Assembly (NCBI GenBank): GCA_031272035.1
Contig: JAISUO010000104.1
Coordinates: 1 to 39,904 of the forward strand
Reading direction: 5' to 3'
DNA length: 39,904 nucleotides
From: Synergistaceae bacterium
GTDB taxonomy: Bacteria > Synergistota > Synergistia > Synergistales > Aminobacteriaceae
In this document: positions 1,583 to 21,968 of the stretch, in pieces
Position numbering within the stretch: position 1 is the first letter of the stretch
Layout of the letters: each line of letters begins with the position of its first letter
Translations under genes and position numbers: made by a program
The notes under the pieces: generated by a model
What the model was told of the DNA's origin: nothing
The model's database searches: none
The model's input: only the letters and a program-made list of their open reading frames with translations

Positions 1583-1624
1583 ATAACAGGCATTATATCA
1601 ATTTGATTGAGGAGCGATGTCGTA

Positions 1625-2449
1625 TTGGATGAAGAACGACTTTTAAAGATAGCAAATAAAGTAAGGTTTCATATCATAGAAATGGCATACCAATGTGGAG
1701 GCAATGCTCATTTGGGAGGAGCTTTGTCTCTGGTGGAAATACTCGCTGTTCTTTATGGAGAGATTTTACATTTCAATTCCCAATTTCCCCTTTTACTGGA
1801 AAGAGATCGCTTTATACTGAGTAAAGGACATGGGGTTCTGGCATACTATGCGATTTTGGCAGAAATGGGTTTTTTCCCTTTAACTCTCTTAAAGACATTC
1901 CAACAAAATGGGACAGCGTTGGTTGCGCATCCCGTAATGAATTTAAAACTGGGAATTGAATCGTCGAACGGAAGCCTGGGACAGGGATTATCGATGGCGT
2001 GTGGGATAGCGCTTTATGGAAAACTTCAGGAGAAATCTTATAAGGTATATGTAATTTTAGGGAATGGCGAATGCAATGAAGGGGCAGTCTGGGAAGCTGT
2101 AATGATGGCCGCTCAATTTAAGCTGAAAAACCTTACAGTCGTCATTGATGCAAATGGAATGCAGTCTGATGGGAATAGTGCAAATATCGTTGACTTAACG
2201 CCTTTTGCTCAAAAATTTTCTGCTTTTGGATGGAATGTAGCTGAAGTCGATGGACATGATATGAAAGAGCTTTACTCCGCTTTTTCTTCGCAGAATGAAT
2301 CAGAATGCCCCAAAGTGGTTATAGCGAAAACAATCAAGGGCAAAGGTATTTCATTTATGGAAAACAGTATTGAATGGCATCACAACAGACTGACGAAAAC
2401 TTTATATGAACAGGCTTTGACAGAATTGGAGAACAAAGCGAATGTTTGA
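1625..2449 (+). CDS. Transketolase, N-terminal (TPP-binding) subunit, split form
   Basis: About 274 residues. It covers the N-terminal, TPP-binding half of transketolase and pairs with the next gene. The conserved transketolase histidines are present: AHLGG (first), ILSKGHG (second) and VAHP (third). The TPP/Mg motif is LGNGECNEG...DANGMQSDG, with Asn in place of the usual Asp of GDG. The enzyme would transfer a two-carbon ketol unit from a ketose to an aldehyde. I placed the start at TTG 1625 because AGGAG at 1610-1614 sits 10 bases before it; an in-frame TTG at 1607 has no ribosome-binding site. The gene overlaps the C-terminal subunit by 8 bases, so they are translationally coupled. AT-rich. 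In this context it may act on a sugar or aldehyde used in glycan or lipid assembly, not in the pentose-phosphate pathway. Confidence 0.85.
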   Translation: MDEERLLKIANKVRFHIIEMAYQCGGNAHLGGALSLVEILAVLYGEILHFNSQFPLLLERDRFILSKGHGVLAYYAILAEMGFFPLTLLKTFQQNGTALVAHPVMNLKLGIESSNGSLGQGLSMACGIALYGKLQEKSYKVYVILGNGECNEGAVWEAVMMAAQFKLKNLTVVIDANGMQSDGNSANIVDLTPFAQKFSAFGWNVAEVDGHDMKELYSAFSSQNESECPKVVIAKTIKGKGISFMENSIEWHHNRLTKTLYEQALTELENKANV

Positions 2450-3413
2450 GATCACAGAGGCGAAATGCAAAATATGGGCGCGAATGGGTGCCCGTGCCAC
2501 GTTGGGAGCGGCTTTATTCGATCTTGTGTCTCAAAGAGAAGACATATTTGTACTGTCTGCCGATCTTGTTACTTCTTCAGGATTGGCGCGTCTCCAAAAA
2601 ACATTTCCGAACAGATGTATCAACGTTGGAATAGCAGAACAAAATCTTATAGGAATTGCTTCGGGCATGGCCAAAGAAGGCGCCGTTGTTTTTGTTACGT
2701 CCTTTGCCCCCTTTGTGACAATGCGAGCATGTGAGCAAATTCGTATGAACATGGGATACATGAAAATGAATGTAAAAGCTGTTGGATTAGGCAGTGGACT
2801 TGCTATGGCGCATTTGGGCACCTCTCATTATGGACTTGAAGATATTTCAATTATGCGTTCTATTCCAAATATAACAGTTCTATGTCCGTCTGATGGAGCA
2901 GAAATTTTCAAATGTGTATTTGCGGCGTCTGAGCATGAGGGACCTGTTTATATAAGATTATCAGGAGGAGTTAATAATCCTGTTGTATTTGACTCAGATT
3001 TTAACTTTATGATTGGAAAAGCAATCAAATTTAAAAACGGCAATGATGCTGTGTTTTTTACGAATGGGATGATGTTGTCACAATGTCTCATCGCAGCTGA
3101 AATTTTGGAAGGCAGAGGTATTTCCGTTGCGGTGATAGATATGCATACAGTAAAACCTCTGGATACCGGCGCTATAGATGAAGCAATTACGGCTGGACTT
3201 TCTCTTATTACTGTAGAAGAACACAGCGTGATCGGGGGTTTGGGAAGCGCCGTTGCTGAATATAAATCTGGATTAAAAGATGCTCCTCCTCATTTGATAA
3301 TAGGACTCCCTGATGCATATGGCAAATCAGGAGAACATACATACCTTCTTGAAGAATATGGTCTGAATGCAGAATCAATAGCATGTAGAGTTGAAAAATT
3401 TTTAAAAAAATAA
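2442..3413 (+). CDS. Transketolase, C-terminal subunit, split form
   Basis: 323 residues, comprising the pyrimidine-binding and C-terminal domains of transketolase. GIAEQN at residues 63-68 contains the glutamate (E66) that activates TPP. The following region (GMAKEGAVVFVTSFAPF, later HYGLEDISIMR) matches the family. The C-terminal domain includes TVEEHSVIGGLGSAVAE, typical of TPP enzymes of this class. It forms the active enzyme with the product of the preceding gene, because TPP sits at the subunit interface. ATG 2442 lies inside the end of the upstream gene. It is AT-rich like its partner, and a second, unrelated-looking transketolase pair lies at 12094-14062. Confidence 0.87.
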   Translation: MFEITEAKCKIWARMGARATLGAALFDLVSQREDIFVLSADLVTSSGLARLQKTFPNRCINVGIAEQNLIGIASGMAKEGAVVFVTSFAPFVTMRACEQIRMNMGYMKMNVKAVGLGSGLAMAHLGTSHYGLEDISIMRSIPNITVLCPSDGAEIFKCVFAASEHEGPVYIRLSGGVNNPVVFDSDFNFMIGKAIKFKNGNDAVFFTNGMMLSQCLIAAEILEGRGISVAVIDMHTVKPLDTGAIDEAITAGLSLITVEEHSVIGGLGSAVAEYKSGLKDAPPHLIIGLPDAYGKSGEHTYLLEEYGLNAESIACRVEKFLKK

Positions 3414-10934: not shown

Positions 10935-12092
10935 TCACCGCTCCAGCGCGGCGCGAAAACGCCGGCAGTTTTCGACGAGGTCGCCGCCGCAGGTGAAAAG
11001 CCCTCCTCCCACCAGGACCAGCATGTCGTCGCCGTAGGTCCGCCTCATGTCGTCGATGTTTCCCAGTTCCATCCCGCCGGCCGGGGCGGGGAAAATGGGC
11101 TCGAAGTTTTCCGGATTCTCTCTGCAGGCCGCCGCAATCCCCAGGCAATCCTCCTTCGAAAGGGGAAAACGACCGCCGCAGTTGGGAAAGATCGTGGCGT
11201 CCGCTCCCGCCATGCGCATGAAAGTGCCGAACAGCAGGTCGGCGGCGATGCCCTGGCGGGTGAGAGCGTAACTTCCGAGAAAAGCGGGGTGCGTAAAGAT
11301 GGGCAGTTCTCCCTCTGTCCGCTCCGAAATTTCCCGCACCGCATCCAGACCCGTGAGACCAGGCGACACCAGAAGTCCACCCGCCCCCAGTTCACGGGCT
11401 CTTTGCACCCGCTCCGGCAATTGAGAGGCCGGGGCGGTGACGTTGGGGACGTACAGGGCTTTGCGCCCCAGCTTCGCGGCGGACTCTCGCACCGCGGCGG
11501 CGCAGAGGGCGACGCGCTCTTCGAAGGGAGCGAACACCTGATTGGTGAGGCCGTGGTCGTCTTTGACGATGTCCACTCCCCCCTCCACGAATTGGGCGGC
11601 CAGCCTCGCCATTTCGGAGGACGAGAGCCCCATGGGCTTGAGCGCGGTGAAAAGCAGAGGACGACGGGGCACGCCGAGAAGGGCGCGAATCCCCTTCACT
11701 CCAAAACGGGGCCCGCGTAAAAACGAGCGAACGCCCCTTCCCGGATGGATTCGCACAACCTGGATTCCGGGCTTGATGCTGATGTTGCCAAAAATCACGT
11801 CGAGAAACTGAGTGAACTCCCCCGCGGCGGTTTCGTCCGCAAAACTGACGGAGGCGAGGTACTGTCCTTCGCGTTCTTTTTCCAGGTTTTCAAGACGGCC
11901 CCGCACCTCCGAGAGAATGGCGCCGGGGGGCAGCAGCGGAACCGGAAACTCCACAGTCTGCTCGGTGCAGATGTCCTCCGCCCTCTCCCGAGCCGCCTGT
12001 TCATTGTCCGCGTACAGGCGATAGAGAACCAGAAAGCGCCCTCCGCCGACCAGGCTTCGGGTTCGCGCGTCGTCGTGGTCTTCGAAAAACAT
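10935..12092 (-). CDS. RuBisCO-like protein (form IV family, function unknown)
   Basis: 385 residues, a RuBisCO large-chain homologue. The N-terminal domain is residues 1-140 and the TIM barrel about 145-380. Barrel motifs: FTALKPMG with K152 (equivalent to Rubisco K175), GGVDIVKDDHGL with K177 and D179 (equivalent to K201 and D203), FTHPAFLG, GGRF, and phosphate-binding VGGGLF near 361-366. The third metal ligand of the usual KDDE motif is His (H180), so true carboxylase activity is unlikely. Family members catalyse enolisation, isomerisation or decarboxylation of phosphorylated sugars. The gene follows the split transketolase with one base between stop and start, so it is co-transcribed, and the substrate is probably a phosphosugar shared with that enzyme. 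Confidence 0.87.
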   Translation of the reverse strand: MFFEDHDDARTRSLVGGGRFLVLYRLYADNEQAARERAEDICTEQTVEFPVPLLPPGAILSEVRGRLENLEKEREGQYLASVSFADETAAGEFTQFLDVIFGNISIKPGIQVVRIHPGRGVRSFLRGPRFGVKGIRALLGVPRRPLLFTALKPMGLSSSEMARLAAQFVEGGVDIVKDDHGLTNQVFAPFEERVALCAAAVRESAAKLGRKALYVPNVTAPASQLPERVQRARELGAGGLLVSPGLTGLDAVREISERTEGELPIFTHPAFLGSYALTRQGIAADLLFGTFMRMAGADATIFPNCGGRFPLSKEDCLGIAAACRENPENFEPIFPAPAGGMELGNIDDMRRTYGDDMLVLVGGGLFTCGGDLVENCRRFRAALER

Positions 12093-12093
12093 G

Positions 12094-13104
12094 CTACAGG
12101 GCCTCCGCCTTGGCGCTGCTGTGCAGGGCCGGCGTGTACGCTTCCGCCAGGCTGTTTTCGTCGATGAAAAACCGCTTTCCGGTGATCTCTTCCACCGCGC
12201 CTGTCAGAGCCAGTGCGTCCAGTCCGTATTCCCGCATCAGATGACGGCGACCGGCCCCGTGAACGAAGGTGTCGCGCAGGCCAAGACGACGCAGGGGCTT
12301 TCCCGTTCCGGCCTCCGCCATGCCCTCGGCCAGGATGGATCCCAGTCCGCCCAGGATGCTGTGGTTTTCGAGGGTGATCGCTCCCCACCGGCTGGCCGCG
12401 ATTTCTCTCACGATTTCCGGATGATTGAAGGGCTTGAGGGTGGAAACGTGATAGTGGGCAATGTCCAGCCCTCTCTCCCGCAGCGCCGCGACGGCTCTCA
12501 TGCCCTCTTCGGTGCATATCCCGGAGGTCAGCAGGACGAAATCGCCGCCCTCCGAGAGCTTGCGGCACGCCCCAGGTTTCAGCGGCTCCTTTGGGTCGAA
12601 AAGACGGGGAATCTCTCCGCGCAGCTGGCGGACGTACACCGGACCGGGTATGTCGCAGGCCGCCTCCAGAATCGACTCGGTCTCGGTGGCGTCGCCGGCC
12701 TCAAGAATGGTCATATTCGGGAGAGCCCGCATCACCGCGACGTCTTCAATGGCCTGATGGGTGGCGCCGCCCGGCGTGAGGATGCCCGGCAGAAAACCGA
12801 ACATTTTGACGGGCAGGTTGGGATAGGCCACGGACATGGCGACCTGGTCGAGAGCGCGGCGATAGATGAACACGGCGAACGTATGCACCAGCGGAATCAA
12901 CCCCTGACGCGCCATCCCTCCGGCGAAGGCGAGCATGTTCTGTTCGGCGATGCCCATGGACAAAAATCGTTCCGGAAAGGCGTCGCGAAATCCGTCCGCC
13001 TCGCAGGAGGAGGTCAAATCCGCCGACAGCACCCAGGCTTCGGGGTGGTTCCGTCCCCATTCAACCAGATGTTTCGCGTGTACTTTCGTCAGTATTTCCA
13101 TCAT
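12094..13104 (-). CDS. Transketolase-like protein, C-terminal subunit (RuBisCO-like operon)
   Basis: About 336 residues with the pyrimidine-binding and C-terminal domains of transketolase. MGIAEQNM contains the TPP-activating glutamate, E54; further landmarks are HTFAVFIYRRALDQ, GGATHQAIEDVAVMR and TLENHSILGGLGS. I start at ATG 13104, with AAGGG five bases upstream; the frame remains open to 13197 but would then overlap the partner gene. It forms a dimeric TPP enzyme with the product of the upstream gene. Its position between that gene and the RuBisCO-like gene suggests a dedicated sugar-phosphate pathway. An apulose-4-phosphate transketolase (AptA/AptB) is a described split enzyme of this kind from apiose catabolism, but no other apiose genes are visible. 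Confidence 0.84.
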   Translation of the reverse strand: MMEILTKVHAKHLVEWGRNHPEAWVLSADLTSSCEADGFRDAFPERFLSMGIAEQNMLAFAGGMARQGLIPLVHTFAVFIYRRALDQVAMSVAYPNLPVKMFGFLPGILTPGGATHQAIEDVAVMRALPNMTILEAGDATETESILEAACDIPGPVYVRQLRGEIPRLFDPKEPLKPGACRKLSEGGDFVLLTSGICTEEGMRAVAALRERGLDIAHYHVSTLKPFNHPEIVREIAASRWGAITLENHSILGGLGSILAEGMAEAGTGKPLRRLGLRDTFVHGAGRRHLMREYGLDALALTGAVEEITGKRFFIDENSLAEAYTPALHSSAKAEAL

Positions 13105-13120
13105 TATTGCCCTTTCTGCG

Positions 13121-14062
13121 TTACAGCCCTTCCTGGAATGTGTTCTCGTAAAATTTTCGATATTCTGCTTTTTCTTCAGGGGAGGCAAAACGGACATAGT
13201 GGAATTTCGGCCGGCGTTTTTGCAGAACGGCCATGTCCCGGCAGGGGTCCGTGTCGCAGAGGACGAAGGTGGGGACGTCGGCGGCTGGCGCTCTGCCGAG
13301 GCGGATCAGGGTTTTTATGTCGTGTCCGTCGATGCGGCGCACCCGGGCGCCGAAGGCCGCCAGACGCCTGTCGAAGGGTTCCAGCTGCATGACGGAGGTC
13401 ATCGGGCCGTCGCACTGACATCCGTTCATGTCGACGTAAGCGAGCATATTGCCGAGTTTATGAAAGCAGGTGGCCTGGACGGCCTCCCAGAACTCTCCGG
13501 ACTGACACTCTCCGTCGCTCATGAGGAGGATCACCCGGCCCGTTTCTCCCTTTACCCGACGGGCCAGCGCGATGCCTGCGGCCTGACTGATTCCCTGTCC
13601 CAGCGACCCCGTGGTCACCTCCATGCCCGGAGAGTGTTCCGCGCCTATCATCTCCACGGTGCTGCCATCGACGTTATAAGCCGCCATGCTTTTTTCGTCC
13701 ATCCGCCCGACCTCGACCAGCGCGGCGTACAGCGTCAGTGCGTACTGAGCAGGAGAAAGAATGAAATTATCGCAGTCCGGCTCGCCTCCGCCGTTGAAGA
13801 TCGCTCCGGTGAGAGCGGGACGGGCGGGCCCCGGCGTTCCTGCAAAGGGCAGGGCGCTCAGGGGCCGGTCGATTTTTTTCAGGTTCAGGACACAGGTGTA
13901 CAGCGCCGCGAAAATTTCCGCCGACGAACAGGCCTGGCTGAGGTATCCGCCGTCATGGGACAGCGTGTGGGCCAGCACGCGGCGACGAATGCCACGGGCC
14001 GCCCGCGCCGCCCGATCGATTTGATTTTCCCGGCCCTTTCGGCGGGCTGAATGATCTCCCAT
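13121..14062 (-). CDS. Transketolase-like protein, N-terminal subunit, with altered active-site motifs
   Basis: About 313 residues. The TPP/Mg motif is intact: SDGECQSGEFWEA (from about residue 182) with MNGCQCDG (from about 212), and VTTGSLGQGISQAAG matches the family. The first conserved histidine motif (SGHPG in transketolase) is replaced by DGGYLSQ, and SNGHG is replaced by SPAQYA, so two catalytic or substrate-contacting histidines are gone. There is also an insertion of roughly 20-25 residues (PLSALPFAGTPGPARPALTG) before the second motif. The protein may therefore use an atypical donor or acceptor. I start at ATG 14062, where AAGGGGG lies 8 bases upstream; an in-frame TTG at 14080 has none. 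The gene leads the operon with the C-subunit and RuBisCO-like genes. The AT-rich leader contains an 11-bp tandem repeat. Confidence 0.82.
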   Translation of the reverse strand: MGDHSARRKGRENQIDRAARAARGIRRRVLAHTLSHDGGYLSQACSSAEIFAALYTCVLNLKKIDRPLSALPFAGTPGPARPALTGAIFNGGGEPDCDNFILSPAQYALTLYAALVEVGRMDEKSMAAYNVDGSTVEMIGAEHSPGMEVTTGSLGQGISQAAGIALARRVKGETGRVILLMSDGECQSGEFWEAVQATCFHKLGNMLAYVDMNGCQCDGPMTSVMQLEPFDRRLAAFGARVRRIDGHDIKTLIRLGRAPAADVPTFVLCDTDPCRDMAVLQKRRPKFHYVRFASPEEKAEYRKFYENTFQEGL

Positions 14063-14077
14063 GCAACAGTCCCCCTT

Positions 14078-14110
14078 CAACTTTCAGCCAACTTTCACTC
14101 AACTTTCAGC
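14078..14110. repeat. Three tandem copies of an 11-bp unit upstream of the transketolase gene
   Basis: CAACTTTCAGC (14078-14088), CAACTTTCACT (14089-14099) and CAACTTTCAGC (14100-14110). The first and third copies are identical; the middle one differs in two bases. On the minus strand the array runs directly into the ribosome-binding site AAGGGGG of the transketolase N-subunit. Confidence 0.9.
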
Positions 14111-14249: not shown

Positions 14250-14996
14250 ATGTATAAAATTGTACTTGTTCGTCATGGAGAAAGCGCCTGGAACAAAGAA
14301 AATCGTTTTACCGGATGGACGGACGTTCCGCTGTCGGAAAAGGGGATCGCGGAGGCCCGGGATGCCGGAAAACTTCTGAAAAAAGAGGGATTTGTTTTCG
14401 ATATGGCCTACACGTCCGTTCTGAAGCGCGCCATCAAGACCCTGTGGCTGGTGCTGGAGGAAATGGACATGATGTGGATTCCCGTCGTTCGCTCCTGGCG
14501 TCTCAACGAACGCCATTATGGAGCTCTGCAGGGGCTGAACAAGGCGGAGACGGCGGCGAAATACGGCGACGATCAGGTGAAAATCTGGCGGCGCAGTTAC
14601 GACGTCCGCCCGCCGCTTCTCACGAAAGACGACGAGCGTCATCCCTCGGGCGACCCCCGTTACGCGTCCCTGAAAGCCGGCGAGATCCCCGATGGCGAGT
14701 GTCTGGCCGATACCGTGGCACGTGCCGTCCCTTACTGGGAAAATACCATCGTTCCGGAAATCCGGAGCGGGAAAAAGATTCTCATCGCGGCCCACGGCAA
14801 CAGTTTGCGCGCGCTGGTGAAATATCTGGACAACATCTCGGAAGAGGAGATCGTTGAACTCAATATTCCCACGGGCGCGCCTCTGGTGTATGAATTGAAT
14901 GAAGACATGAAACCCGTCGGTCATCGCTACCTCGGCGACCCCGAGGCCATTGCCAGAGCTCAGGCCGCCGTAGCCGGGCAGGGAAAGGCGAAATAA
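14250..14996 (+). CDS. gpmA: 2,3-bisphosphoglycerate-dependent phosphoglycerate mutase
   Basis: 248 residues, the standard length. The phosphohistidine motif LVRHGES is at residues 6-12 (H9 is phosphorylated), followed by [15 protein letters not shown]. The substrate-binding [15 protein letters not shown] and the second catalytic histidine in [10 protein letters not shown] are present. It interconverts 3- and 2-phosphoglycerate in glycolysis. GGAGGG lies 7 bases upstream of the ATG. The gene begins a co-directional block: the TerB-domain gene starts 25 bases after its stop with no terminator between, an unusual partner for a core glycolytic gene. Confidence 0.96.
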
Positions 14997-15021: not shown

Positions 15022-16554
15022 ATGAAAGGGGCGGCGCCGTACGATTTCGATGCGCTGCGCCGTCTCAACAGGGGAAATTTCAGAACAGACGCGCCGCAAA
15101 AACCGGTGTCTGCCGATGTTGCAATTCAGCAAACGACCCCGTTGGGAGGAACAGAGGACCTCTCCGACAAAAAAGGCCTGATGTGGCTCGGAGAAAACGT
15201 GACGCTGCGGATGGGGAATTTTGTCGTTTCCGCCCCCATGACGTATTGCTATACGGGTCGCGCCGATCCGAAAGAAGCCTCATGCGTCTGCACCTCCCTG
15301 AGCGTCGCCGATCTTCCGGAGAGCGGAGGGCTGGGTTACTGGCCCTCGTATTTCGGAATGACGCCGGGGCAGAGGGCGTTTTATCTGCGATGGCTGGCGG
15401 AGGGGAAAAATACGCATCTCGACGACATCGGCTATGCGTTCGTCTATTTTTATGGGCTGGAACGGCGGGCCCTGATGGAAAAACAGGATATTCCCTGGAT
15501 AAGGGGAGAGGTTCGGCGTCTTTTGGCTCGTTATCCCGCCTCGCGCTCCTTTCGGAACTATCTGGGCGGTTTCCTTACATATCTTTACGCGGAAAATCTG
15601 AAGGATCTGACGGAGGCGGATTTGCTGGACCTTCACGCTTTTGCCCCGGCGCCGCCCGGAAAGTCGCTTCCTCTGCTGCTGGCCTGGTACGCGCTCCATG
15701 GCGTTTCACTTTCACCGGAGCAGAGCCTTTACGTTCTCCGCAGCCTTCCCGGCCACCGGATTTCCCTGCCCCTCCGCTGCAGGGAGCTGTTTTATGAGCG
15801 CTGCCGCCGGCTTTGGCCGTTGGGCTTCCCGCTTTCGGCCTCTTCCCGCCGCTGTCTGGTGGAATACGGCGCGGCCAGCGCGACGCTTTCCTTTGAGGGG
15901 GGAGAAAAATCTCCGCCTCCCGTGCCCATTGCGAACGTCCTGGGAAAAATGTCGCAGTTCAAAGAACTCCTGGCTCTTCGAAAAACCTGTCTTCAGGAGG
16001 ACAAAGACGAGCTTGTCCCCGTCCGCCGGACAAACGTCGACGGGGGGGCGAAAATTTCCGGAGAGCCCCTGCCTCCGAGAAAACGCCGAAGGAGAAGGAT
16101 AAAAACGTCGCTTCCTCCGACCCCGCCCCGGCCCCCGGAAATCCTCATCGACATGGAGAAGCTCGTCCGGCTGCGGCAGGAGACGGAAAGCGTGAACCGG
16201 CGACTGGAGGAAATTTTCAACAAAGAGGAAACAGACGAGCGAAACACCGCGGTTATCTCCGAAAAAGCGATCCAGGATCGAGAGGTTGGCTCCTTTGACC
16301 CTCTGCCGTTTTCCGAAGAGGCCCTGAACTGCCTCGACCCTCAGTATATTCCCGTCCTGTCCGAACTCCTGCGGCGTACGTCTCAGAGCGCCGGGAGCTG
16401 GGGAGAACTGGCCCGCCGTTACGGCTTTATGCCCAACGCGCTTCTCGATGCCCTCAACCTTTGGGGAGAAGAGGCGCTGGGTGATTTTCTCCTTCTGGAC
16501 GAAGGGGAGGGACCGGTTTTGAACCCCGATGTCGTAAAATCACACCATATGTAA
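15022..16554 (+). CDS. TerB-N/TerB-C domain protein
   Basis: 510 residues. Residues about 60-270 match the TerB N-terminal domain type, with YWPSYFGMTPGQRAFYLRWL followed by HLDDIGYAFVYFYGLERRAL. A basic stretch RKRRRRRIK (353-361) and proline-rich linker (about 364-373) follow, then a probable coiled coil (about 376-404). Residues 430-505 (FSEEALNCLDPQYIPVLSELL, YGFMPNALLDALNLWGEEAL) fit the TerB-C domain. TerB domains are linked to tellurite-resistance and stress or phage-response systems and often bind metal. The next two genes encode a BrxD-like ATPase and an Lhr-like helicase, a combination I associate with defence loci. The ribosome-binding site is poor, so the start is not certain. The domain assignment is by recognition, not by search. 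Confidence 0.72.
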   Translation: MKGAAPYDFDALRRLNRGNFRTDAPQKPVSADVAIQQTTPLGGTEDLSDKKGLMWLGENVTLRMGNFVVSAPMTYCYTGRADPKEASCVCTSLSVADLPESGGLGYWPSYFGMTPGQRAFYLRWLAEGKNTHLDDIGYAFVYFYGLERRALMEKQDIPWIRGEVRRLLARYPASRSFRNYLGGFLTYLYAENLKDLTEADLLDLHAFAPAPPGKSLPLLLAWYALHGVSLSPEQSLYVLRSLPGHRISLPLRCRELFYERCRRLWPLGFPLSASSRRCLVEYGAASATLSFEGGEKSPPPVPIANVLGKMSQFKELLALRKTCLQEDKDELVPVRRTNVDGGAKISGEPLPPRKRRRRRIKTSLPPTPPRPPEILIDMEKLVRLRQETESVNRRLEEIFNKEETDERNTAVISEKAIQDREVGSFDPLPFSEEALNCLDPQYIPVLSELLRRTSQSAGSWGELARRYGFMPNALLDALNLWGEEALGDFLLLDEGEGPVLNPDVVKSHHM

Positions 16555-16627
16555 TAAACTTCGAAGCTGAAAAGCGCGCGAAAGAACGCGGGAAATACGA
16601 CGAATACGTACGATGGAAGGTGTCGGT

Positions 16628-17977
16628 ATGGCGAACATCAGGCCCCGGGAGCGGGAGGCGATCGTTCAGTCTCTGATGGCGGGAGTCGTGCCGCGCATTG
16701 GACTGCATCATATTCAGGTGGGACGCAGAGAGGAAATCGAGGCCCTGCTGGAGGACCTGGCGCGAATTGCGGACGGCGGCGCGGCGGTTCGCTTCGTCAT
16801 CGGGCGTTTTGGAACGGGAAAGAGCTTTTTTCTGAACCTGGTGAAAACGGTGGCCCTGGAAAAGGGTTTTGTGGTCATGCAGGCGGATGTCGCTCCGACG
16901 CGGCGTCTGTACGCCTCCGGCGGATACGCTCAGGCGCTTTACACGGAGCTGGCGCGCAACATGGCGATCCGAACGAAGCCGGGAGGTGGCGCTCTGCCGG
17001 TGGTGATCGAACGCTGGATCTCCGCCTTTCTGGAGGAATTTGAACAGGGGAATAAAAGCGGGGGCGACGTTTTTCACGGGATCAGAGAGAAACTGGAGCC
17101 GCTGCAAAATCTTGTGAGCGGTTATGATTTCGCTTCAGTCCTCGGAAAATATCTGGAGGGTTATCGAGAAGGAAACGACGTTCTTACCCGTTCCTGTCTC
17201 CGCTGGCTGGCGGGAGAGTACGCCGTGCGCACGGAGGCCCGGGCCGACCTGGGCGTTCGTTCGATCATCGGAGATCGGGACCTGTACGATTATCTGAAAC
17301 TCTGGGGAACCTTCGCGCGGCTGGCGGGATATGCCGGAGTGCTCGTGGAGCTCGACGAGATGGGAGTGCTTTCTCACCGGCTCGCCAATGCCACGGCGCG
17401 AAACGGCAACTACGAAGTTCTGCTGCAGATCGTGAACGACTGTCTGCAGGGCGGCGTTTCAGGCGTCGGATTCATCTTCGCCGGGACGGACGCCTTCTTC
17501 GACGACCGCCGCCGGGGCGTCATGAGTTACGGCGCTCTGGCCGGGCGGTTGGCCGCCAACCCCTGGGCGCGGGACGGGCTGAAGGACATGGCCGGCCCGG
17601 TGATCCGTCTGGAGAGCCTGTCGCCTGAGGATCTGTGGCTGTTGCTTCAAAATATCCGGAATGTCTTTGCCTCCGGTGATGCCTCGAAATATCTCCTCCC
17701 TGACGAGGGAATCCGCGCCTTCATCCGGCGATGCGCGGCGACGCTGGGGGCGACGTTCTATCAGACGCCCCGGGACGCCTCGAAGGCTTTTGCCGGCCTT
17801 CTCTCCATACTGGAACGCAACCCCGGCGCCGACTGGCGAAAGCTTCTCGACGACGCCCCGATAGAAAAAGAAGAAATGGAAAAAGAGGAAATAGAAAAAG
17901 AGGAAATGGAAACGCCGGAAAACGGCCCGAAACCGACGGCCGCGGATGACGAACTCACGGGCTTCGTGCTGAAATGA
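16628..17977 (+). CDS. BrxD-like P-loop ATPase
   Basis: About 449 residues. Walker A is GRFGTGKS (about residues 59-66) and Walker B VLVELDEMG (about 238-246). The N-terminus RPREREAIVQSLMAGVVPRIGLHHIQVGR matches the BREX-system ATP-binding family (BrxD, formerly DUF2791). The middle contains FIFAGTDAFFDD, similar to the sensor region of STAND/AAA-type ATPases. I start at ATG 16628 because AAGGTG lies about 6 bases upstream; the in-frame ATG 16613 has no ribosome-binding site. The C-terminus is odd: about 20 residues of repeating EKEEM/EKEEI before a final acidic tail. The stop overlaps the helicase start by 4 bases, so the proteins probably form a complex. Confidence 0.78.
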   Translation: MANIRPREREAIVQSLMAGVVPRIGLHHIQVGRREEIEALLEDLARIADGGAAVRFVIGRFGTGKSFFLNLVKTVALEKGFVVMQADVAPTRRLYASGGYAQALYTELARNMAIRTKPGGGALPVVIERWISAFLEEFEQGNKSGGDVFHGIREKLEPLQNLVSGYDFASVLGKYLEGYREGNDVLTRSCLRWLAGEYAVRTEARADLGVRSIIGDRDLYDYLKLWGTFARLAGYAGVLVELDEMGVLSHRLANATARNGNYEVLLQIVNDCLQGGVSGVGFIFAGTDAFFDDRRRGVMSYGALAGRLAANPWARDGLKDMAGPVIRLESLSPEDLWLLLQNIRNVFASGDASKYLLPDEGIRAFIRRCAATLGATFYQTPRDASKAFAGLLSILERNPGADWRKLLDDAPIEKEEMEKEEIEKEEMETPENGPKPTAADDELTGFVLK

Positions 17978-20127
17978 CCCTGTCGGAGAGAATGTTCGAA
18001 AAACTTCACCCGCTGGTGCAGCGGAAGCTCTACGATATGCGATGGACCGAACTGCGCCCCATTCAGGCGGAAACGATAAGAGCGTTTTTCTCTCACGACC
18101 GCCACCTGATTCTGGCCGCGGAGACGGCGGCGGGAAAAACCGAGGCGGCGTTTTTGCCGATCCTTTCCCGGATGCTGACGGAGTCGCGGGAAAAGGGGCT
18201 TCGGGCCCTTTACGTCAGTCCCCTCAGAGCGTTGATCAATGACCAGTTCCACCGGCTGGACGACCTCTGCGAGCGCATGGAGATTCCCGTTTTCCGGTGG
18301 CACTCGGACGTGGGCTCCGCGCTGAAGAAAAAGTTTCTGGCCGACCCCCGGGGGCTGCTTCTGATCACGCCGGAGTCCATTGAGTCCCTTTTTATCAACC
18401 ACGGAGAGCATATCGGACATCTGTTCAAAACGACCTCCTGGGCGGTTCTCGACGAGATGCACGCCTTTACCGGAACGGAACGGGGGATGCACCTGCTAAG
18501 TCTGCTGGCCCGCATCGATCGGGTCCGAACGCGGCCCATGCGTCGGTTGGGGCTTTCCGCGACGATAGGAGATTTCGAGGCCTCGAAAAAGTGGCTTTGG
18601 GCGCGAGCTCCCGGCGAGGTGGAGGTCCTGGCCCCCGGAGGCGAGTCCAAAGAGATTCTTTACCGGGTGAAGGGTTACGAGATCGGCTTTGAGGGTTCGC
18701 AGTCTCCATGGGTGGAGGACATGGAGCGTCTGTTTCCCTCCACCTCTCTGATTTTTGTCAACTCCAGAACGATGCTCGAACATCTGACCTGGACGGTGCA
18801 GCGTTACGCGAAAAAGAAGGGGCTTCCCGACCGCTACCGGGTTCACCACGGCTCTTTGTCGAAAATCGAAAGGGAGGACACGGAAGATGCGCTCAAAACC
18901 CGGGAGGGAATCGTCACGTTCTGCTCCGCCACCCTGGAGCTGGGCATCGACGTGGGAAACGTGACCCGCGTGGGGCAGTTCGGCGCGCCCTGGTCCGTCA
19001 GCGCGCTTCGGCAGCGCCTGGGGCGCAGCGGCCGCCGGGACGGAGAAAGTTCAGCCCTGGTGATGTTCATTGCGGATAAAATTCCCAGGGGTGACGTGTC
19101 TTTTGTCCGTAAAATTCACCCGGAGCTTTTGCAGGCGATCGCCATGTCGGAGCTGATGTTCGACCGGTGGAGCGAACCTCCCGACGTGGAGCGGCTCCAC
19201 TGTTCCACGCTGGTTCAGCAGTGCCTGAGCGTCGTGGCGGAAAAAGGAGGAATCTCCGCTCCGGCGCTTTACGATCTGCTGATTTCCCGGGGGGCGTTCC
19301 GTCTTTCGAAGGCGGATTTCGGCGAACTGCTGAGATCGCTGGGGACCCACGACCTGCTGGATCAAACGGGAGAGGGAGATCTCGTCCTGGGCCTGGAAGG
19401 AGAAAAAATCGTCCGGAACTACGATTTCTACGCGGCCTTCACCGCGCCGAAGCAGCTTGCGGTCGTCCATCAGGGGCGGCCGGTGGGGAGCATTTTTCTG
19501 GCGCTCGACATGATTCCGGAGGGTTTTATTCTGCTGGCCGGGAAGCGCTGGAAAATTCGCGCCATTGATCTTGAAAGGGACGTCATCGATGTGGATTCCG
19601 CCGAGGACGGCAAGGCGCCTCCCTTTGGAGGAGACGAGGGGCCGGAAATTCACTCCCGCGTCCGGCAGAAAATGTTCGAATTGCTTACCGGAGGAGACGT
19701 TCCCGTCTATCTCGACGACAGAGCCGCTCAAATGCTGATGAATGCCCGGCAGGTCGCGGCCGAAGTCCGGATGGAAAGGGGGCGCTGTTCTCTCCTGAAG
19801 GAAAAGCGCAACCTGCTCTGGTTTCCCTGGGAAAGTTCCGCCGTGCATCGCACGCTTTACGCGATGGGGCTGCTTGCCGGAATGGAGCTCGAAGACCGGG
19901 GCATCGCGCTGGAGTTTAAACGGACGACTCCCTCGGAACTGGCAGAGGCGTACATTCCCTTTCTGGAGACGCCTCCCGAAGTGGAGCGAATCGTCGATAT
20001 CTTCGAACTGGCGGGCAAGGGAAAGGAGAAATACGACCGCTTCGTTCCGGCAAAATTTTTGCTGGAGGCCTTCGAAAGACAGTACCTGGACATCTCCGGC
20101 GCGCTGAGGGCCGTGACTCAACTATAA
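17974..20127 (+). CDS. Lhr-like superfamily 2 DNA/RNA helicase
   Basis: 717 residues. Helicase motifs: Q-like region LRPIQAETIRAFF, motif I AETAAGKTE (residues 49-57), motif Ia SPLRALINDQ, motif II DEMH (160-163), motif III SAT (195-197), motif V region SATLELGIDVG, and motif VI QRLGRSGRR (347-355). The C-terminal 300 residues resemble the winged-helix and Lhr-core region, with MPEGF-like DMIPEGFILLAGKRWKI. Full-length Lhr is about 1,400-1,500 residues, so this is an Lhr-core or BrxHII-sized protein. It would unwind or translocate on nucleic acid using ATP. The ATG overlaps the ATPase gene by 4 bases. The three-gene set is probably one functional unit. Confidence 0.84.
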   Translation: MTLSERMFEKLHPLVQRKLYDMRWTELRPIQAETIRAFFSHDRHLILAAETAAGKTEAAFLPILSRMLTESREKGLRALYVSPLRALINDQFHRLDDLCERMEIPVFRWHSDVGSALKKKFLADPRGLLLITPESIESLFINHGEHIGHLFKTTSWAVLDEMHAFTGTERGMHLLSLLARIDRVRTRPMRRLGLSATIGDFEASKKWLWARAPGEVEVLAPGGESKEILYRVKGYEIGFEGSQSPWVEDMERLFPSTSLIFVNSRTMLEHLTWTVQRYAKKKGLPDRYRVHHGSLSKIEREDTEDALKTREGIVTFCSATLELGIDVGNVTRVGQFGAPWSVSALRQRLGRSGRRDGESSALVMFIADKIPRGDVSFVRKIHPELLQAIAMSELMFDRWSEPPDVERLHCSTLVQQCLSVVAEKGGISAPALYDLLISRGAFRLSKADFGELLRSLGTHDLLDQTGEGDLVLGLEGEKIVRNYDFYAAFTAPKQLAVVHQGRPVGSIFLALDMIPEGFILLAGKRWKIRAIDLERDVIDVDSAEDGKAPPFGGDEGPEIHSRVRQKMFELLTGGDVPVYLDDRAAQMLMNARQVAAEVRMERGRCSLLKEKRNLLWFPWESSAVHRTLYAMGLLAGMELEDRGIALEFKRTTPSELAEAYIPFLETPPEVERIVDIFELAGKGKEKYDRFVPAKFLLEAFERQYLDISGALRAVTQL

Positions 20128-20155
20128 AATAAAAAGACTGTAAAATAAAAAGACT
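20125..20155. repeat. Two tandem copies of a 15-bp unit after the helicase stop
   Basis: TAAAATAAAAAGACT occurs at 20125-20139 and 20141-20155, a 16-base period. The first copy begins at the helicase stop codon (TAA, 20125-20127). The last T of the second copy is the first base of the TTGACA -35 box at 20155-20160. Confidence 0.9.
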
Positions 20156-20184
20156 TGACACCTCGGAATGAAAAACACTATAAT
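20155..20184 (+). promoter_or_regulatory. Consensus sigma-70-type promoter for the SRP operon
   Basis: TTGACA at 20155-20160 and TATAAT at 20179-20184 with an 18-base spacer. Both hexamers are perfect. Initiation near 20191 would give a leader of about 60 bases before ylxM. That leader contains a small hairpin, TCCCG-GGA-CGGGA (20203-20215). Confidence 0.87.
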
Positions 20185-20252: not shown

Positions 20253-20567
20253 TTGAAGAGTCTGATTTCTGATGACGGAGTTCGCCTCGAACGACGGTTG
20301 CACGTCAACGCTCTTTACGATATTTACGGTCCTCTGCTGACTGAACGGCAGAGATCTGTATATGAAATGCGTTGTTTTTCAGATTTGTCACTGGCGGAAA
20401 TCGCTGAAACTCTGGGAATTACGCGTCAGGCCGTGCATATCGTGGTCAACAAAACGCAGGACAGGCTGGAAACGCTGGAAAGAGAGCTCGGTTTCGCCGC
20501 CCGCCTGGAACGGCTGGAAAACAGAATCAGAGAACTTGAAGCGCGATGTTCCGGCGGGGGATCCTGA
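20253..20567 (+). CDS. ylxM: YlxM/p13-like helix-turn-helix protein
   Basis: 104 residues. The N-terminal domain is a sigma-region-4-like helix-turn-helix: LLTERQRSVYEMRCFSDLS then LAEIAETLGITRQAVHIVV. The C-terminus is a charged helix (LERLENRIRELEARC). YlxM proteins are encoded directly upstream of ffh in many bacteria and are thought to modulate the signal recognition particle. The start is TTG at 20253, with GGGGAG at 20236-20241 about 11 bases upstream. The start codon lies in one copy of a 10-base repeat (AGTCTGATTT at 20245-20254 and 20259-20268), so the N-terminal codons may be a duplication product. ffh follows after 36 bases. Confidence 0.82.
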   Translation: MKSLISDDGVRLERRLHVNALYDIYGPLLTERQRSVYEMRCFSDLSLAEIAETLGITRQAVHIVVNKTQDRLETLERELGFAARLERLENRIRELEARCSGGGS

Positions 20568-20603: not shown

Positions 20604-21968
20604 ATGTTTGAAGCACTGAGAGAAAAACTGGAATCGGCGTTTTCAAAACTCAGGAGCAGGGGGAAAATTTCCGAGGCCGACGTGGACGGGGCGCTGCGTG
20701 AAATTCGCAGATCCCTTCTGGAGGCGGATGTCGATCTGGGCGTCGTCAGAGGCCTGATCGAAAAAATCCGCGCCCGCGCGGTGACGCTTGACGTTCTTGA
20801 GTCGATCACCGCCGCGCAGCATATATCGACGGTGGTTTACGAGGAACTGATCGCGCTGATGGGGACGGACGTCGCGCCTGTCAGCATCGCCTCGAAGCCG
20901 CCCACCGTCATTTTGATGGCGGGCCTTCAGGGCAGCGGAAAGACCACTACCACGGTAAAGCTGGCGCGACGCCTGCAGAGCGGTCATAACCCTCTGGTGG
21001 TCGCCTGTGACCTTCGTCGTCCCGCCGCCGTGGAGCAGCTGAGGGTGTTGGCCGAGGCTTCCAAAGTCGCCTTCTTCGGTCCGGAACCGGGAGAGACCGA
21101 CGTGCTGAAGGTCGTTCGCGGCGCGTCCGCCTGGGCGGAGTCTCACCTGAACGACGTTATTCTTCTGGACACGGCCGGACGCCTTCACGTCGACCAGGAA
21201 CTCATGGACGAACTGAGCTCTGTGGCGAAACTGCTGCCGCCCCACGAAATTCTTCTGGTTGTGGACGCCATGACGGGGCAGGAGGCCGTGAACGTCGCGA
21301 AGTCCTTCCACAAACTTTTGAACGTGACAGGCCTCGTCCTGACCAAGCTGGACGGAGACGCCCGAGGCGGAAGCGCCCTTGCGATTCGGGCCGCGACAGG
21401 GATTCCCGTGAAGTTCGCCGGTATGGGAGAGGCTGTGGACGCCCTGGAGGTTTTCGACGCCAGACGCATGGCGGGCCGCATTATGGGCATGGGGGATATC
21501 GAGGGGCTGCTGGAGAAGGTCAGGGCCGTCGGAGCGGAAGATGTCGAAAAAATGGCCGAGAGCCTCCAGAGTCGGGAATTCACCCTGGAGACGCTGCTGC
21601 TTCAGTTTCAGCAGATCGAAAAAATGGGCCCCCTGGGCAAGGTGATGGAAATGATCCCGGGGTTCAGCCGGATCAAAGGGATGAACGAGGCGGAGATCGA
21701 CAACTCCATTATTGTTAAAAACAGGGCAATCATTCAGTCGATGACGCTTCAGGAGCGCCGCAACCCAAAAATCATCAAGGGCTCCCGGCGTCGGCGCATC
21801 GCACTGGGCTCCGGAACGTCGGTTCAGATGGTCAATCAGCTTCTGGCCCAGTACGAGCAGATGAAAAAACTCTTTAAAACCTTCTCCGGAGGGTCCGGAA
21901 AGGGATTCAACCTGAAGTCCCTTTTTGGAGGAAACCGACGGTTCAATTTTAAGCAGGGCAAAAACTAA
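20604..21968 (+). CDS. ffh: Signal recognition particle protein Ffh
   Basis: 454 residues, standard for Ffh. N domain about 1-95 and G domain about 96-295, with G1 GLQGSGKTTT (107-116), DTAGRL (189-194) and TKLDGDARGG (247-256). The C-terminal M domain begins near 330 and is methionine-rich, with the RNA-binding GSGTSVQMVNQLL. Ffh binds 4.5S RNA and signal sequences and delivers ribosomes to the membrane receptor FtsY. The gene sits in an operon with ylxM upstream and rpsP, khpA, rimM, trmD and rplS downstream, a common bacterial order. The 4.5S RNA gene is not in the window. Confidence 0.97.
   Translation: MFEALREKLESAFSKLRSRGKISEADVDGALREIRRSLLEADVDLGVVRGLIEKIRARAVTLDVLESITAAQHISTVVYEELIALMGTDVAPVSIASKPPTVILMAGLQGSGKTTTTVKLARRLQSGHNPLVVACDLRRPAAVEQLRVLAEASKVAFFGPEPGETDVLKVVRGASAWAESHLNDVILLDTAGRLHVDQELMDELSSVAKLLPPHEILLVVDAMTGQEAVNVAKSFHKLLNVTGLVLTKLDGDARGGSALAIRAATGIPVKFAGMGEAVDALEVFDARRMAGRIMGMGDIEGLLEKVRAVGAEDVEKMAESLQSREFTLETLLLQFQQIEKMGPLGKVMEMIPGFSRIKGMNEAEIDNSIIVKNRAIIQSMTLQERRNPKIIKGSRRRRIALGSGTSVQMVNQLLAQYEQMKKLFKTFSGGSGKGFNLKSLFGGNRRFNFKQGKN

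Follow-up and report, generated by a model that had tools for sequence, protein, structure and literature searches.

The three adjacent genes analysed here, located in a stretch of 39,904 nucleotides from a Synergistaceae bacterium (the window), are recognisable from their sequences as Shango (sngABC), an already described system, and not as BREX. We consider it fairly likely that they encode a variant Shango-type anti-phage system, with a SngA devoid of the TerB domain, that is inherited vertically in two Synergistaceae genera and would work as an ATP-driven complex. Shango (SngABC) was reportedly described by Millman et al. 2022 and Johnson et al. 2023. Once cloned, the system of P. aeruginosa PA14, composed of a TerB protein, an ATPase and a DEAD/DEAH helicase, conferred 10-100-fold protection in P. 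aeruginosa PAO1 (PMC10250203). No Shango mechanism was found in the literature searched.

Family identity and surroundings of the triad

The genes sngA, sngB and sngC are intact open reading frames, all on the forward strand and in the order A-B-C (Table 1). The sngB and sngC frames share 4 bp (ATGA, 17974-17977), an overlap that an earlier note on this DNA had observed. The start of sngB is probably the ATG at 16628 rather than position 16613, because the SngB proteins of relatives begin there with MANIKPRERE. Within the tail of sngB, an in-frame 15-bp repeat (17861-17920, IEKEEMEKEE) was noticed, and other in-frame repeat expansions occur in the SngB and SngC of relatives.

Table 1. Predicted features of the triad and of its immediate neighbours in the window
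Feature	Position	Strand	Description
gpmA	14250..14996	+	Neighbour outside the Shango system; NCBIfam PRK14115, 436.7 bits (cut-off 305)
sngA	15022..16554	+	510-aa TerB_N + TerB_C protein without central TerB (PF05099)
sngB	16628..17977	+	449-aa BrxC/BrxD-family P-loop ATPase; ORF opens at 16613
sngC	17974..20127	+	717-aa Lhr/BrxHI-like SF2 DExH helicase
sigma-70-type promoter (TTGACA-18-TATAAT)	20155..20184	+	Predicted; 12/12 consensus match
ylxM	20253..20567	+	Downstream housekeeping neighbour; Pfam UPF0122
ffh	20604-21968		Downstream of ylxM

Using the PADLOC models, SngA was detected with 133 bits (PDLC03958, E=5e-39), SngB with 494 bits (PDLC03959, E=9e-149) and SngC with 708 bits (PDLC03960, E=5e-213), whereas the BrxD model reached only 155 bits on SngB and BrxHI/HII, the second-best model for the helicase, 428 bits. 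The Shango models were thus ahead by 339 and 280 bits for SngB and SngC, respectively. Pfam domains were TerB_N (residues 70-188, 1.6e-24) and TerB_C (residues 372-506, 2.2e-17) in SngA, both above cut-off, BrxC_BrxD (1.6e-132) in SngB, and DEAD and Helicase_C in SngC. Profile searches hence agree with the TerB-N/TerB-C protein, BrxD-type ATPase and Lhr-like helicase that the earlier note had named. Its proposal of a probable defence module is also supported, but what it took for an unnamed BREX-like triad is the described Shango according to PADLOC. No nuclease domain was recognised with Pfam in any of the three proteins. Both Walker motifs of SngB (A, GRFGTGKS; B, VELDE) and motifs I, Ia, II (DEMH), III (SAT), V and VI (QRLGRSGR) of SngC are intact in the window, and likewise in five relatives.

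The window has in common with Shango a SngB and a SngC of the expected subfamilies, a TerB_N/TerB_C protein and the linked A-B-C order on one strand, combining a BrxD-like ATPase with an Lhr/BrxHI-like DExH helicase. It also resembles BREX loci carrying BrxD and BrxHI/BrxHII, in that a BrxC_BrxD ATPase lies beside a helicase of a related family. However, SngB scores 148.8 bits against the NCBIfam BREX_BrxD profile NF033438, far under its cut-off of 350, a SngA is present, and BrxA/B were not seen. No PglZ, BrxC or methylase, including the usual PglX, was found among the flanking ORFs scanned, as previously noted. SngC shares a related SF2 DExH core with Lhr and ligase-associated DEXH helicases, but with its 717 residues it remains far under the equivalog cut-offs of these families (191.9 bits for TIGR04121, cut-off 850; 165.8 bits for PRK13767, cut-off 849) and it sits with SngB. 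In the PDB it is best matched by 5v9x, the structure of an ATP-dependent DNA helicase that we take to be the mycobacterial Lhr core; the SngB profile retrieved no solved relative from the PDB. A published helicase phylogeny recovers SngC within an SF2 clade associated with defence, alongside BrxHI, DruE and DpdJ (PMC12278908).

Upstream, gpmA lies on the same strand and is separated from sngA by 25 bp, in which no terminator-like site was found, in line with the earlier description. Cotranscription of gpmA and sngABC is therefore plausible. The GC content of sngABC is 0.58-0.60, similar to that of the flanks, confirming the native base composition reported before. Downstream, the triad is delimited by the predicted promoter of Table 1, which opens the ylxM-ffh unit. 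Immediately 5' of this promoter, at the triad edge, positions 20121-20152 hold a 16-bp direct repeat (ACTATAAAATAAAAAG). The flanks scanned contain metabolic, translation and replication genes and no defence island, so that here, where the anti-phage activity is attributed by homology, the housekeeping surroundings differ from those of Shango. Further upstream, a gene for a RuBisCO-like protein adjoins a split transketolase-like gene pair (10935-14080), and a second such pair is located at 1607-3413.

SngA without its central TerB domain

We aligned 28 SngA-like proteins, including those of the window, its orthologues and two further sequences of the family (L049 and L051). About 250 residues located between the TerB_N half and TerB_C are missing in the window SngA and in its orthologues from four relatives: this region comprises 11-17 residues in the window clade versus 246-261 in canonical SngA. 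The clade proteins measure 503-516 aa where complete, and the TerB-less form was seen in all 5 clade sequences long enough to be judged, which span two genera; the SngA of G002 is a mere fragment at a contig edge. The Pfam TerB domain (PF05099) matches 21 of the 28 proteins. We infer that its carriers are all the proteins outside the window clade except L049 and L051, because 21 equals their number and the alignment agrees. Since TerB is regarded in the literature as the signature of Shango, the absence of the central domain from the ~510-aa SngA led us to classify the window triad as a variant of Shango instead of a canonical member.

The PDB matches of SngA were TerB-type entries only, and were obtained through the central part that is absent from the window protein. 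An AlphaFold model of the window SngA (mean pLDDT 79, pTM 0.58) gave no significant fold match in the PDB; a winged-helix resemblance of the C-terminal part, at E ~0.6, was set aside.

Other SngA-like proteins of the family were noticed. The central region of L049 (506 aa), from a more distant Shango of the same family (G030), is also short, with 104 residues. This divergent locus (L049:2975-17866) combines the shortened SngA with ~11 kb of other genes between sngB and sngC. Most genomes of the family encode a second TerB_N-like protein, for which the frames are ~650-880 aa long; in the window genome it lies apart from Shango and shares ~31-36% identity with SngA (G000:C71, L051:2329-4569). 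In G032, whose genome is ~100% complete, an apparently orphan canonical SngA of 721 aa (L050:2073-4238) is followed by a peptidase-like gene, and no SngB match was found.

Linkage, descent and selection

The linkage of the three genes was surveyed on the best 80 SngB loci from named genomes, 75 of which lie outside the window's lineage and could be tested upstream. In 73 of these 75 loci sngA adjoins sngB, and sngC follows sngB wherever the downstream side was testable; one locus (L088) was counted by hand, as the start of its called sngC ORF was overextended. The two exceptions are Anaerobiospirillum MAGs (L093 and L096) having sngBC without sngA. Neither assembly yielded any TerB_N protein, and the two may represent a two-gene form.

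The refuting condition set by the earlier note, genes found mostly apart, hence gives a divided answer: the three-gene order is kept across bacteria, but the genes are apart in the closest relatives of the window. Among two species of its genus and three of the sister genus, sngA and sngB are adjacent in 0/5 and sngA lies away from sngBC in 5/5. In G003 all three genes are apart, another gene following sngB and sngC being found behind an oligopeptidase-like gene. All relatives nevertheless keep SngB and SngC, and SngA too (as a contig-edge fragment in one of them). The gene upstream of sngB in relatives is glgC, gmd or bioY, as named from the translations. It is complete and on the same contig as sngB, which excludes contig ends as the reason for the unlinking. 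The six clade genomes are multi-contig drafts, the five relatives being 82-94% complete, and the linked state of the window is read from a single contig, where a misassembly is possible.

General scrambling of gene order is weakened as the whole cause of this dispersal. The order ylxM-ffh-rpsP-khpA-rimM-trmD is intact in G001, G002, G022 and G031, without sngC upstream. The pair dnaE-pyk also holds in the relatives where both genes were found, namely G001, G022 and G031, and in G002 as far as a contig end that cuts pyk. Because these blocks stay together while sngA and sngB never do in the five relatives, the dispersal exceeds general scrambling. Even so, some variation between species is seen around gpmA and upstream of ylxM as well. 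In no relative where this could be examined is gpmA next to sngA, or sngA next to ylxM-ffh. The gpmA site is hence local to the window, and the 'glycolysis transcript' previously proposed does not hold as a conserved coupling.

In two species of the sister genus, G022 and G031, sngA is positioned behind an SNF2 (DUF3670) helicase gene (L045:4544-8801 and L043:268-3540), and in G031 a SWIM-motif-like protein comes next. The SNF2 domain is similar to DpdE/ZorD. A close orthologue of this helicase is absent from the window genome, the best match being at 43%. In G022, a HerA-like ATPase gene and its partner adjoin sngBC in convergent orientation (L013:13358-16339).

SngB was detected in 6/6 sampled species of the two sister genera versus 5/77 others in the family. 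Among the best SngB loci, those nearest to the window come from Synergistaceae MAGs with named records (JAITPZ, JAISSA and JAISLU accessions), whose sample codes look termite-gut metagenomic, a presumed origin that is our guess. In a FastTree phylogeny of SngB and SngC, the six species group as a single clade (1.0 support), apart from other Synergistaceae Shango (g3, g15). The nearest branch as placed by FastTree is a Hydrogenedentota MAG, whose Shango is linked and has a TerB domain. At synonymous sites, sngB and sngC have diverged about as much as gpmA and ffh. Their dN/dS values are 0.11-0.27, compared with 0.24-0.33 for sngA, a fast evolving gene whose product shares 59% identity within the genus. 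The genes therefore descend vertically under purifying selection, and a recent import into the window is rejected, GC content being like that of the flanks and synonymous divergence like that of the two housekeeping genes. The long residence suggested by the earlier note is accordingly true for the clade, with its 6/6 species and housekeeping-like divergence, but not for the position behind gpmA, which no relative shares. Most likely, as far as the sequences indicate, the system entered once before the two genera split and was then kept by selection: the sequences form a single clade, synonymous divergence is housekeeping-like, dN/dS is well below 1 and the motifs are intact.

Within the genus, the trmD tree pairs G001 with G002 (97/98), the window being their sister; ffh gives the same pair (72/72), as does gpmA, weakly. 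In the sngB tree the window is paired with G002 (81/74), and the sngC tree gives no resolved pairing. This conflict is weak. The housekeeping topology implies that linkage was either lost twice or lost once and later regained, a choice beyond parsimony alone because the gene trees disagree. Separate losses are favoured, since a chance regain of the same order and strand is improbable. As regards mobile elements, a search of 50,697 phage records gave no SngB relative; among plasmids, 681 records (540 conjugative) carry relatives of less than 60% identity, a set that may include BrxD.

Alternative readings, proposed mechanism and meaning

The strongest rival to a defence system is a triad now serving the cell's own DNA or RNA, the proteins of this clade having left defence for a chromosomal task such as DNA/RNA remodelling, replication-fork or repair support. 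Repurposing would explain the fixation in all species, the vertical descent, the dispersal into housekeeping neighbourhoods and the TerB loss; the 6/6 retention against 5/77 elsewhere, the lack of a defence island in the flanks scanned, the dispersal without gene loss and the purifying selection are in its favour. However, the fast evolving SngA resembles an immune or adaptor gene more than a housekeeping one, the HerA-like gene adjoining sngBC in G022 is of a kind common in defence loci, and the helicase gene ahead of sngA in G022 and G031 is of the DpdE/ZorD-like SNF2 type. We regard this reading as rather unlikely, while recognising that the missing signature domain and the housekeeping neighbourhood count against defence, and that scattered, vertically inherited genes are atypical of a defence system and would equally fit repurposing.

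Two other readings appear highly improbable. The triad could be a reduced BREX remnant, with BrxD and a BrxHI-type helicase surviving from a type 2-like BREX locus next to a TerB gene unrelated to them. The BrxC_BrxD domain of SngB and the rank of BrxHI/HII as second-best helicase model agree with this, but it is rejected on the profile margins (149 bits for BREX_BrxD where 350 are needed) and on the partners missing from the window genes scanned, and the neighbouring tree branch is a linked A-B-C Shango. Domain loss in SngA and operon break-up might alternatively denote an eroding, non-functional Shango. Against such decay, the three frames are open with conserved catalytic motifs, dN/dS stays far under 1 between species of both genera, and every judgeable sequence retains the truncated SngA.

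Returning to the variant Shango-type defence system, its most likely mechanism is one modelled on its relatives. While the roles of the protein families are established, the way they act together here is proposed: SngB, an AAA+/BrxD-type ATPase, and SngC, a DExH helicase of Lhr/BrxHI type, would form an ATP-driven complex, which SngA would load through its TerB_N and TerB_C parts onto invading or abnormally structured DNA. The complex may stall or remodel phage DNA instead of cutting it, as no known nuclease domain was detected in the three proteins. A role of SngA as sensor or adaptor fits its fast evolution.

The Shango system itself was already known; beyond its naming, the analysis brings the TerB-less SngA, the unlinking in relatives and the vertical descent under selection. 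In this natural form the ATPase and the helicase persist with a SngA reduced to its outer parts, which points to TerB as a possibly dispensable part and to a minimal set. That sister species retain all three genes although these are unlinked provides independent evidence of their joint function, and locus-based defence finders that rely on adjacency could overlook systems of this sort in the genomes concerned. A bolder reading, which we hold to be less likely than not, is that a mobile defence system was turned into a fixed chromosomal part, which lost TerB and whose operon dissolved stepwise, from A-B-C to A / BC and then to A / B / C, while the separate loci were kept under purifying selection. 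If true, this would be an immune system of several unlinked genes that still works, or one repurposed for the cell's own nucleic acids.
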